A DNA stretch of 64,000 bases from NCBI GenBank assembly GCA_031292275.1, contig JARLHL010000100.1, forward strand, positions 1-64,000, written 5' to 3'. Made by a program: the position numbers and the translations under genes. The notes below the pieces were generated by a model, which saw only the letters and a list, made by a program, of their open reading frames with translations, did no database searches and was not told the DNA's origin. This DNA comes from Desulfocapsaceae bacterium. Its GTDB lineage: Bacteria; Desulfobacterota; Desulfobulbia; Desulfobulbales; Desulfocapsaceae. Below are positions 625 to 63,963 of this stretch, piece after piece (position 1 is the stretch's first letter; each line of letters begins with the position of its first letter).

Positions 625-722
625 TGGCGGAAGTGCATGGGAATCGAACCCACCCGAGAGGCTATTAACCCCTCACACCGGATTTGAAGTCCGGGAGGAC
701 CACCAGTGTCCTATCCACTTCC
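625..722 (-). tRNA. selC: tRNA-Sec (anticodon UCA)
   Basis: The minus strand folds as a selenocysteine tRNA of 98 nt: a long acceptor arm beginning GGAAGTG pairing with CACTTCC, an extended D arm (GGAC with GTCC), an anticodon stem CCGGA/TCCGG around the loop CTTCAAA (anticodon TCA), a long variable arm, a T arm with GTTCGATTC, discriminator G and an encoded CCA (625-627). The eighth acceptor position is a G-G mismatch by my alignment, unlike the 8-bp acceptor of E. coli selC. It reads UGA as selenocysteine when a SECIS element is present, and fdhA in this window has exactly such a codon. selA, selB and selD are not in the window. Confidence 0.95.
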
Positions 723-57440: not shown

Positions 57441-57662
57441 ATCTATACTCTTGGGTATGGTTTTACTGCTTATGAAATGTTTCGCTTACAGCATTCGTTT
57501 GTATGGAATCATTTTCATTGTTGCGGTCAAATGAAAGGGGCTGGTTCATTTTTTTTCTTACATTTGGTCTGGTTTTTCAACCAGGGCCGGAATGATTCTG
57601 CCAAATCACGGCAAAATAAATTCAATTTCCTTGAGATTTCCTTGACTGGCATCCTTTTACCA

Positions 57663-57904
57663 GGACACTTCAGAGATGACGTGGTCGCCTTGAAAGCAGA
57701 GGCGTTCGCCCTTTTTTGGGACACCTCTTTTTCTTGTCGTGCAAACAGTTGCGGTTGCTATCTGGATTGATCTGAACGTCTCCGGTTTGACAAAGTTCGA
57801 TGTTTATTCCTTTATCCTGCTCAATCTTGCCTTCAGTCTCCAGGCAGCCTATGCCGCTCCTTATTCTTCTTGCACAGACACGGCAGGAGGACCGCGATTA
57901 AACA
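57663..57904 (+). pseudogene. DUF1003-family membrane protein, frameshifted remnant
   Basis: Three frames join to give the DUF1003 pattern. DDVVALKAEAFALFWD ends in a T6/G3 run (57712-57720). The next frame gives TPLFLVVQTVAVAIWIDLN and FDVYSFILLNLAFSLQAAYAA to about 57856. The third gives LLILLAQTRQEDRD, followed at once by TAA. Two frameshifts and a stop in 240 bp mean the gene is dead. No intact copy is in the window. Confidence 0.75.
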
Positions 57905-58061
57905 CATGGCATGCGCAGACGCACAATTTTGCCTGACAGGACAACGGCTCTGAAGAAACATACCGGCAAGATGATGCAGGTGACGTTTGTGAAATAAAAG
58001 AATATTTCTTGCTGACTGTTCGACTTTGCCATGATAACATGACTGGTCTGTAGACACTGAT
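57905..58061. other. Intergenic region upstream of the riboswitch
   Basis: Expected to hold the kup promoter; no clear consensus pair identified. Confidence 0.35.
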
Positions 58062-58232
58062 CAGTCCATACCTTCAACAGGGATGGGCGGATCCCGAAAT
58101 GTCTCGGGCTGCCGAATCTCGTTCGGGAAAATGGGAGCGGGGGAACCAGGATTATGGGGCGTATCGCCGGAACTCGGCGTAGGGTGAACTCTTCCACCCA
58201 AGCCCGTCAGCTAACCTCGCAGGCATTGAAGG
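58062..58232 (+). promoter_or_regulatory. c-di-AMP riboswitch (ydaO/yuaA class) in the kup leader
   Basis: The leader contains the ydaO/yuaA hallmarks in order: GGGGGAACC (58139-58147), TGGGGCGTATC (58155-58165 approx), GGGTGAACTCTTCCACCC (58182-58199) and the invariant CCGTCAGCTAACCTCGCAGGC (58204-58224). The class binds cyclic di-AMP and usually turns off potassium uptake and cell-wall genes. The kup ORF begins about 60 bp later. Confidence 0.88.
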
Positions 58233-58244
58233 GAAAGCGTTCTC

Positions 58245-58273
58245 TGTATCATGGAGACTTTTCCCATGATACA
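58245..58273 (+). promoter_or_regulatory. Expression-platform hairpin between riboswitch and kup
   Basis: TGTATCATGG (58245-58254) pairs perfectly with CCATGATACA (58264-58273). No T-run follows; the kup Shine-Dalgarno TTGGAG (58277-58282) begins 3 bases later, so control of initiation or Rho access is more likely than intrinsic termination. Confidence 0.6.
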
Positions 58274-58289
58274 TTATTGGAGATGCGCT

Positions 58290-60230
58290 ATGTCCACGCA
58301 AAATACTGTTGCGGGAGTTGCAAGCCCACCAGCAGCTCAGCCTGTTTTATTGCCGTCACCCCCTGGCAAGCTGAAAACCTCAGGTCTTGCCCTTGCTGCT
58401 CTGGGTATTATCTACGGTGATATCGGAACCAGTCCGCTCTACACCATTAAGGAATGTTTTACCGGGAAACACGGAATGTCAGTCATCCCCGGCAATATAA
58501 CCGGAATCATGTCCATGGTATTCTGGTCGCTGATCATCGTTGTCAGCGTGAAATACGTCATATTTTTTCTCCGTGCCGACAATAATGGAGAGGGAGGAAC
58601 CTTCTCTCTTTTGGCCACCCTGCGCAGTAAATTAAAGACAAATCCCAAGGCCTGGGCTTTTCTTACCATTCTAGCTGCTGCAGGAGCCTCCCTTCTCTAT
58701 GGGGATGGGGTTATCACCCCTGCAATTTCAGTGCTTTCGGCCATAGAGGGTCTGAATCTGGCGACGGACGCCGCTGCTCCCTATGTTGTCCCCTTGACCT
58801 GTGTCATTCTGATTGCACTCTTTTTGATTCAGAAACGCGGCACTGCGGCCATAGGCAAGATGTTTGGCCCTATCATGCTGGTCTGGTTCGCAACCATAGG
58901 TGTCCTGGGGCTCATATCCATCATTCATCAACCGGCGATTCTGGTAGCGCTCAACCCTTTCTGTGCCGTCCGTTTCTTCGCAGTCAACCACATCCACGGC
59001 ATTGTCGCCCTGGCCTCGGTCGTTCTTTGCATCACTGGAGGCGAGGCCCTCTATGCAGACATGGGGCACTTCGGTCGCTTGCCAATTCGACTCAGCTGGT
59101 ACTGTATTGTTCTCCCTGGTCTGGTTTTGAATTATTTCGGGCAGTGCGCCTTACTGCTGGATAACCCGGACGTCGCCAACGGTTATCCCTTCTATGCTTT
59201 AGCCCCGCAATCCCTGCTTTATCCTATGGTTGGCCTGGCCACTATCTCCACCATCATCGCCTCCCAGGCCATGATTTCAGGTGTGTACTCTCTCACTCAG
59301 CAGGCCATCCAGCTGGGATTCTCTCCGCGAATGCGAATCATACACACCTCGGAACATGCCAAAGGGCAAATATATATTCCGACCGTCAATTGGGCTCTAA
59401 TGATTGCCTGCCTCACCTTGGTTCTGGTCTTCGAGGAATCCAGCCGGTTGGCCTCGGCTTATGGAATAGCCGTGACGGCCACTATGGCGATTACCTCGTT
59501 CATGTATTTCAAGGTTACTCGCATCAAGTGGTGTTGGCCTCTGTTGCAAAGTCTCTTATTGTTGCTCCTTTTCCTGGCCTTTGACTGTTCCTTCCTGGGG
59601 GCCAATCTCCTGAAAGTGGTGGACGGAGGCTGGATCACCATCAGTATCGCTGCGGTCATAGCAACCAGCATGATCACTTGGCGTGACGGCAGGGCCTTTC
59701 TTGCCAAACATTACCGCGACATGCGAATGCCAACGGATGTTTTTCTCAAAGACGTGGAAGAGCTGAATCTGCCCCGCATCTCAGGGACAGCCGTCTTTAT
59801 GTCCATTACACCGGAAGGCATCCCTTATACCCTCCTGAATTTGTTGCAACATAATGAAGCCCTGCACCAGCGGGTGCTGCTCCTCTCCGTCCTGTCCGAG
59901 GAAACGCCAAAGGTGGGGAAGGAAGACCGGGTTAGCATCGAAGAATTGGGACATGGCTTTTTCAGAATCAAAGCCAGCTATGGATTTATGGAAACCCCAA
60001 ATATCATGAATGTTATCGATCTGCTCGATAAGAAAGGAATGACCGTGGATATTTATTCAACCTCCTTCTTCCTTGGCCGTGAAACCTTAATGGCAACAGG
60101 GAGAAACCCTATGGCCCAATGGCGGAAATTCCTTTTCATTTACATGTCTCGCAATGCCTGGAATGCCACCTCTTTTTTCGGTTTGCCGCCGGAGCGCGTC
60201 ATCGAACTGGGGATTCAGGTCCAAATCTAA
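58290..60230 (+). CDS. kup: Kup-family potassium transporter
   Basis: This 646-residue K+/H+ symporter starts at the ATG at 58290, 7 bases after TTGGAG. Family blocks: ALGIIYGDIGTSPLYTIKECF, DNNGEGGTFSLLATLRSK, LLYGDGVITPAISVLSAIEG, GGEALYADMGHFGR, YGIAVTATMAITSFMYF. About twelve membrane helices end near residue 460, and a cytosolic C-terminal domain follows. Expression is predicted to fall when c-di-AMP is high. Confidence 0.97.
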   Translation: MSTQNTVAGVASPPAAQPVLLPSPPGKLKTSGLALAALGIIYGDIGTSPLYTIKECFTGKHGMSVIPGNITGIMSMVFWSLIIVVSVKYVIFFLRADNNGEGGTFSLLATLRSKLKTNPKAWAFLTILAAAGASLLYGDGVITPAISVLSAIEGLNLATDAAAPYVVPLTCVILIALFLIQKRGTAAIGKMFGPIMLVWFATIGVLGLISIIHQPAILVALNPFCAVRFFAVNHIHGIVALASVVLCITGGEALYADMGHFGRLPIRLSWYCIVLPGLVLNYFGQCALLLDNPDVANGYPFYALAPQSLLYPMVGLATISTIIASQAMISGVYSLTQQAIQLGFSPRMRIIHTSEHAKGQIYIPTVNWALMIACLTLVLVFEESSRLASAYGIAVTATMAITSFMYFKVTRIKWCWPLLQSLLLLLLFLAFDCSFLGANLLKVVDGGWITISIAAVIATSMITWRDGRAFLAKHYRDMRMPTDVFLKDVEELNLPRISGTAVFMSITPEGIPYTLLNLLQHNEALHQRVLLLSVLSEETPKVGKEDRVSIEELGHGFFRIKASYGFMETPNIMNVIDLLDKKGMTVDIYSTSFFLGRETLMATGRNPMAQWRKFLFIYMSRNAWNATSFFGLPPERVIELGIQVQI

Positions 60231-62436: not shown

Positions 62437-62844
62437 ATGGAAGAGGTGATTGCAATCGCCAAGGCTCTCTCGGATGAAAATCGTGTTCGTGCCCTAATGG
62501 TCTTGGGGGAGAAAGAAGTCTGTGTGTGCCAGCTGATAGAACTGCTTCAACTGGCTCCATCCACGGTTTCAAAACATATGTCGATTCTCAAACAGGCTAA
62601 ACTGGTTGATGGTCGCAAGAGGGGACGCTGGATGTACTATCGGTTGCCTGAAAAACCGGTCTCCATGACCGTTGAACGGGCTTTAGCCTGGGTACGTGCA
62701 TCGGCATCCGGGAATCATCGTATTCTTTTGGATGCGGAACAGATGAGCGCAATCCTGGAGATGGATCGCGAGCAGGTTTGTGAGCGTCAATCGCTTCAGC
62801 GGAAACAAATAGTTTTTAAGCGGAGACTGCCATCTGGAATATGA
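62437..62844 (+). CDS. arsR: ArsR-family metalloregulator
   Basis: This 135-residue winged-helix repressor has KEVCVCQLIELLQLAPSTVSKHMSIL: the Cys-Val-Cys pair in the recognition region binds As(III) or Sb(III). GGAGG lies ahead of the ATG. It precedes acr3 and probably controls both genes. Confidence 0.93.
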   Translation: MEEVIAIAKALSDENRVRALMVLGEKEVCVCQLIELLQLAPSTVSKHMSILKQAKLVDGRKRGRWMYYRLPEKPVSMTVERALAWVRASASGNHRILLDAEQMSAILEMDREQVCERQSLQRKQIVFKRRLPSGI

Positions 62845-62886
62845 CAGTGTAGATATGATCTGCCATACAAACGAGGGCTCCGGCGT

Positions 62887-63963
62887 ATGAAATTATCAGA
62901 AAAAAAACAGCTATCCTTTCTTGACCGATTTCTGACCGTGTGGATTTTTTCAACCATGTTCACAGGGGTGATGTGGGGGTATTTTTATCCAGGCATCCGC
63001 GGAGTTATCAATTATTTCCAGGTTGATACCACCAACATTCCGATTGCAATTGGACTTATTCTGATGATGTATCCGCCCTTGGCCAGGGTAAAATACGAAC
63101 AATTGCCGAAGGTTTTTAGAAATATTAAGGTTCTTGCTCTCTCCCTGGTGCAGAATTGGGTCATAGGGCCGGTCCTGATGTTTATTCTCGCCGTTGCCTT
63201 TTTATCCGGCCATTATGAATATATGGTGGGGTTGATTCTTATCGGACTTGCCCGCTGTATCGCGATGGTCATTGTCTGGAATGACCTGGCACATGGAGAC
63301 AGGGAATACTGTGCCGGGCTGGTGGCTTTTAACTCCATCTTTCAGGTGCTTTTTTTCCCGCTCTATGCCTATATTTTCATTACTGTCCTGCCAGGTCTGA
63401 TTGGCCGTCAGGGAGCGGTGGTGGACATCTCTATCGGCCGAATTGCCCAAAGCGTCTTCATCTATCTCGGTATTCCGTTCATTGCCGGGATGATCTCCCG
63501 GTATGTGGGAATCAAGATGCGGGGAATAAGCTGGTATGAAGAGAAATTTGTCCCGAAAATCAGTCCTATCACCCTGATTGCATTGCTGTTTACCATCCTG
63601 GTAATGTTTTCCCTCAAAGGCGAATATATTATCCAACTCCCCTTTGATGTCCTGCGGATTGCCCTCCCTCTCTGCATATATTTTGTGATCATGTTCTTCG
63701 TCTCATATTTTCTCTCAATGAAGGTGGGAGCGACCTATGAGCAGTCTACGACCTTAAGCTTTACCGCAGCCTCAAACAATTTCGAGCTTGCCATAGCTGT
63801 GGCGGTTGCGGTGTTCGGCATCGATTCAGGGGAGGCCTTTGCGGCTGTCATTGGCCCTTTGGTGGAGGTACCGGTATTGATCTTGCTTGTAAATGCCGCC
63901 TTCTGGTTCAAGCGCAAATATTTTCGCTACGCGGTGAAGGGACCTGCAGGATATGTCATTTGA
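62887..63963 (+). CDS. acr3: Arsenite efflux permease, ACR3 family
   Basis: This 358-residue permease has about ten membrane helices. [18 protein letters not shown] contains the conserved Cys essential in ACR3 proteins, and [24 protein letters not shown] is the signature with the conserved Glu. It exports As(III) across the inner membrane. It follows arsR by 42 bp. Confidence 0.95.

Follow-up and report, generated by a model that had tools for sequence, protein, structure and literature searches.

The kup locus and its leader

The 64,000-nt stretch of Desulfocapsaceae DNA analysed here (the window) carries a potassium uptake gene, kup, whose start codon is the ATG at 58290 and whose leader contains an aptamer lying 50 nt ahead of the gene. 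The Kup protein scores 572.9 bits against TIGR00794 (cut-off 539.6) and 611 bits against PF02705, which bears out the link to potassium uptake proposed earlier from the letters alone (the sequence-only reading). A consensus promoter scan around the leader found nothing; several related leaders have TGGTAA-like motifs before the aptamer, pointing to a possible -10 element, from which transcription of kup would possibly start near 58045.

58033 to 58038, plus strand: possible -10 element GATAAC of the kup promoter
58279 to 58283, plus strand: Shine-Dalgarno (SD) sequence GGAGA, 7 nt (counted from GGAG) before the start codon, as read from the sequence
58290 to 60230, plus strand: kup, K+ uptake protein of 646 aa (TIGR00794 above its cut-off, NF008015 below its cut-off, PF02705, PF22776)

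Elsewhere in the window lie an arsR-family regulator and, behind it, a gene for ACR3 arsenite efflux (62437-63963, plus strand) and a selenocysteine tRNA (629-722, minus strand, 73.3 bits).

A c-di-AMP aptamer ahead of kup

58100 to 58240, plus strand: c-di-AMP (ydaO/yuaA) aptamer, RF00379 (cmscan, full model)
58110 to 58113, plus strand: 5' strand UGCC of aptamer helix P1, with its partner GGCA at 58222-58225 (Rfam alignment and pair check)
58189 to 58194, plus strand: pseudoknot loop strand CUCUUC, complementary to 58228-58233
58228 to 58233, plus strand: aptamer 3' tail GAAGGG, the pseudoknot strand, whose last three bases also start the anti-sequestor helix (pair check, relatives)

The Rfam covariance model RF00379 (ydaO/yuaA, c-di-AMP) is matched by cmscan at 58100-58240 on the plus strand with 94.5 bits (E 5e-21), far over the gathering cut-off of 38 bits and among the best scores in the class; the alignment spans all 134 model positions, with zero non-standard pairs flagged. 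This search had been named as a check by the sequence-only reading, whose view of a well conserved ydaO/yuaA core it upholds over the full length. Judged by its match to the model, the kup leader carries a genuine c-di-AMP riboswitch of a known family. In P1, several relatives have UGCU:AGCA in place of UGCC:GGCA, a compensatory change. For the pseudoknot CUCUUC:GAAGGG, native loop/tail pairs exceed swapped ones among 26 distinct relatives (permutation p 1e-5, a guide rather than an exact value because the leaders are related). A crystallised RNA that we take to be from T. pseudethanolicus bears CUCCUUCG and CGAAGGAG; in the sequence given in PMC5393176, these stand at the loop and tail positions and have the same complementarity.

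c-di-AMP signalling in the genome and the order

The source genome is a 4.14 Mb draft, 99.98% complete, and its single DAC-domain gene is a CdaA equivalog (TIGR00159, 237.9 bits against a cut-off of 188.8). The sequence-only reading had predicted c-di-AMP signalling in this Gram-negative bacterium and asked for a DisA or CdaA cyclase; CdaA is there, and from this gene, which passes the NCBIfam cut-off, the host is predicted to make c-di-AMP. The gene is part of a cdaA-ybbR locus, behind which begins a glmM-like ORF that by eye resembles a phosphosugar mutase. Directly upstream of cdaA-ybbR is a TrkA_N-TrkA_C-receiver fusion (L003, 2356-3354, minus strand), which may tie the cyclase locus to K+. 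A 331-aa DHH/DHHA1 protein (L123) is a candidate c-di-AMP phosphodiesterase; another DHHA1 match (L124) was set aside, as by eye it resembles a RecJ fragment, and no PgpH-type phosphodiesterase (PF07697) occurs in the source genome.

DAC genes are found in 143 of the 146 genomes of the order, and RF00379 riboswitches are patchy (24 of the 146; 13 of 93 in the family). Several relatives, G002 among them, have two to four DAC-domain matches each, some in open frames of about 480-520 aa, where the source genome has one. The source genome also holds a second RF00379 copy (L002, 93.8 bits). Behind it come first a short ORF (MQPIKFTTQRYPHRVQPI...), about 47 aa long and hydrophobic at its end, and next a gene resembling SLT transglycosylases; L114 has the same layout, with a short ORF beginning MQPTNFF. 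Since the starts of these two ORFs resemble those of KimA-like genes behind sister riboswitches, they may be gene remnants or encode a small membrane protein.

A helix that sequesters the Shine-Dalgarno sequence

58238 to 58254, plus strand: anti-SD strand of the sequestor, CGUUCUCUGUAUCAUGG, forming 17 pairs with 58264-58273, 58280-58283 and 58285-58287 (-18.8 kcal/mol)
58264 to 58287, plus strand: 3' side of the SD-sequestering helix, including the hairpin arm and the SD (minimum-energy fold, pair check)

Between the aptamer and the start codon stands a 9-bp hairpin (arms 58246-58254 and 58264-58272) extended by U58245:A58273. The sequence-only reading had seen a hairpin here lacking a U-tract, and this holds: the arms are confirmed, AUUAUUGGAG comes after them, and a terminator scan of 57500-58400 found no terminator-like site on the plus strand. 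The leader thus lacks what defines an intrinsic terminator, a GC-rich hairpin directly followed by a U-tract. The same reading had the hairpin end three bases before the SD, which needs correction, as the SD lies 5-6 nt past the arm and the pairing runs into it. In the minimum-energy fold the hairpin is extended across UUAUUG, a small internal loop, into the SD and spacer, with CGUUCUC (58238-58244) pairing with GAGA (58280-58283) and GCG (58285-58287); because the pairing continues past the hairpin in this way, the SD lies inside an extended helix. The -18.8 kcal/mol between the anti-SD and the SD side compares with a mean of -9.5 for dinucleotide shuffles (p 0.0025).

Eleven leaders of the same family, seven ahead of kup and four ahead of trkH or trkA, share one layout: a tail GAAGGGAAAG or nearly so, a variable anti-SD segment, a strand resembling GCUUUUCC, and an SD close ahead of a start codon. 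The seven kup-linked leaders belong to this Kup and to six others at 72-84% identity over the compared part. The anti-SD/SD helices of the 11 differ in sequence and yet remain complementary, as in the compensatory pair UAUCAUGG:CCAUGAUA in this leader against UACCAUGG:CCAUGGUA in its congener L004, in UCUCUGGUUU:AAACUAGAGA of L011, in UCUCCAG:CUGGAGA of L113, and in CUCUGUGGC:GCCACAGGAG, with a bulge, of L117; the sequestor is weak in three relatives (L111, L115 and L119). Native anti-SD/SD pairs average -14.6 kcal/mol against -10.7 when swapped (permutation p 2e-4), the native SD being the best partner in four of the 11 anti-SD rows, and shuffle tests combined over the leaders give p 3e-6, although the leaders are related rather than independent, so that permutation p values of this kind overstate the evidence. 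The SD is therefore paired in one state, by a complementarity kept in relatives. The idea that the tail has a conserved partner upstream of the aptamer was also considered and rejected, as such pairing turned up in single species only (L112, for example).

In the four trk-linked leaders (L111, L112, L115 and L116) the sequestered SD and its ATG open a short ORF (39-52 aa, no common sequence), and in L112, L115 and L116 trkH or trkA begins roughly 185-215 nt beyond it. This ORF may be a leader ORF gating Rho, or what is left of a kup start since lost.

Other kup leaders in the order (L009, L016, L018, L025, L027, L028, L030 and L121) form a second set with the same relay in different letters: the tail is UGGGAG or UGAGAG, the hairpin is AGCCUC:GAGGCU or near it, and CUCC with a variable segment pairs with the SD region, the best duplex of L009 lying elsewhere around the SD. 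Of 40 leaders in the order, seven have U-tract terminators, GC-rich hairpins with 5-8 U; L005 and L006, among these seven, come from the genus of this leader, so that termination and translational platforms stand side by side within one genus.

The anti-sequestor helix

58231 to 58237, plus strand: 5' strand GGGAAAG of the anti-sequestor helix (helix A), pairing with 58259-58265; both strands are present throughout the 11 leaders of the family
58253 to 58257, plus strand: decoy GGAGA, just before CUUUUCCC and able to hold the anti-SD UCUC (fold and pair check)
58258 to 58265, plus strand: 3' strand of helix A, CUUUUCCC (fold and pair check)

Helix A encloses both the anti-SD and the decoy. It shares GGG with the pseudoknot and, together with the decoy, UCUC with the sequestor, and each of these two pairs of structures is mutually exclusive. 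With the tail free, helix A is dominant in all 11 leaders when its 3' strand has just been transcribed (P 0.82-1.0), and it is still ahead just before the SD emerges in eight of them (0.34 in L117). In this leader and in L004 the 9-bp hairpin folds immediately upon transcription and has replaced helix A by the time the SD emerges, and the equilibrium fold of this leader has the SD paired whether the tail is free or not. For these two reasons the ON state is harder to make out in this leader than in relatives and would need kinetic control; early in transcription helix A is favoured in most leaders, least clearly in this one. Helix A alone is not better than shuffles, in a test made weak by a segment too short and biased.

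Proposed mechanism and alternatives

We propose that the c-di-AMP riboswitch probably turns kup off at translation by sequestering its SD, a reading supported by comparison, which shows the aptamer, its pseudoknot and an SD-sequestering helix whose complementarity is kept in relatives. CdaA would supply the c-di-AMP, whose level, according to the literature, is high under K+ sufficiency; bound to the aptamer, it would stabilise the pseudoknot, which would hold the 3' tail GAAGGG. A tail held in this way would be unable to pair with CUUUUCCC, so that the anti-SD (UCUC and its neighbours) would pair with the SD GGAGA, hiding it from the ribosome and shutting Kup off. Without ligand, the tail would pair with CUUUUCCC first, the upstream decoy GGAGA would trap the anti-SD, and the SD would be left free for Kup to be made. 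More tentatively, the order may have a recurrent translational platform in which pseudoknot and anti-sequestor compete for the tail, its relay kept although nearly all letters have changed between the two versions ahead of kup, with trk-linked copies gating a short leader ORF and not the transporter.

The sequence-only reading had allowed for translation or Rho rather than intrinsic termination. Its doubt about termination agrees with the lack of a terminator; as to the rest, the comparison favours direct SD sequestration over Rho. Were Rho involved, SD sequestration would halt translation and Rho would then terminate the untranslated kup message, so that transcript and protein would both fall. 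The absence of an intrinsic terminator is compatible with this, as is the short ORF well upstream of trk as the controlled start in trk-linked relatives, provided that its translation shields the message. Against it, the leader's best C-over-G stretch reaches 1.56, short of the 90th percentile of the window, nothing stands out in the early kup sequence, and a terminator-less Streptomyces c-di-AMP riboswitch is called Rho-independent in a statement quoted in PMC9960051; we regard a Rho-dependent switch as unlikely. That the hairpin, stable and placed between aptamer and start codon, acts as an intrinsic terminator or pause site despite its missing U-tract could appeal to the other leaders of the order that use terminators, two of them in the same genus; it is highly improbable, given that AUUAUUGGAG and no U run follows the hairpin, that the plus-strand scan is empty, that the real terminators of relatives are GC-rich with 5-8 U, and that the SD complementarity would be left unexplained.

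An opposite polarity, with c-di-AMP freeing the SD, is conceivable insofar as the SD is paired by default at equilibrium, which would make the unliganded state OFF. Because pseudoknot and helix A draw on one and the same GGG, however, ligand binding is expected to work against the fold that frees the SD; the c-di-AMP riboswitches known from K+ uptake genes turn them off (PMC6488665, PMC9960051), and an ON switch would increase K+ uptake when K+ is plentiful, all of which makes this polarity very unlikely. The patchy distribution of the riboswitch, in only 13 of the 93 family genomes, might suggest a decayed, unresponsive aptamer with an ordinary constitutive hairpin before kup, but a score among the class best with all model positions matched, and platform complementarity maintained through compensatory changes, leave this with almost no probability. 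For the model of translational control, the comparison names the exact bases to mutate.

Comparison with known c-di-AMP riboswitches

The riboswitch belongs to a known family with a less common expression platform, unusual but not unprecedented; the aptamer, its target and its occurrence in Proteobacteria were already known or predicted, and the introduction of PMC6488665 refers to predictions of such riboswitches before kup, Proteobacteria being one of the phyla. In the searchable papers, the c-di-AMP riboswitches that have been studied mostly stop transcription, a translational mode having first been reported in 2023 in one actinobacterium; we found no publication describing translational control by c-di-AMP riboswitches in this lineage, in a literature largely excluding subscription journals. 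The Bacillus subtilis ydaO/kimA leader (RF00379; ydaO crystal structure 4QLM) has the same aptamer, the loop/3'-tail pseudoknot, a downstream K+ uptake gene and the expected OFF logic, from which the kup leader differs by having no intrinsic terminator, a platform that hides the SD, and a Gram-negative host lineage. Likewise, the Bacillus thuringiensis kdpFABC riboswitch is an experimentally established c-di-AMP OFF switch of a K+ uptake operon (PMC6488665), with the logic and the kind of target suggested here for kup, but it works by intrinsic termination. Closer to hand, L005 and L006 of the same genus have an aptamer of the same family, and the Kup-like transporter behind it is about 41% identical to this Kup; they differ from this leader in that a GC-rich hairpin with eight successive U forms an intrinsic terminator.

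The nearest precedent for the platform is RSnlpC, the nlpC riboswitch of Corynebacterium glutamicum, for which reporters give evidence of translational control with no terminator, and in which CUCC is proposed to change partners, from an upstream GGAG in the ligand-free RNA to the GGAG of the RBS once ligand is bound (PMC9960051). The kup leader shares with it the aptamer class, the lack of a terminator and the same CUCC/GGAG idea. RSnlpC differs in serving a cell-wall peptidase gene in an actinobacterium and in being backed by reporters, whereas the pairing proposed for the kup and trk leaders rests on cross-species comparison; this comparison lends independent support to translational control by c-di-AMP in a Gram-negative lineage, on a classic K+ uptake target.
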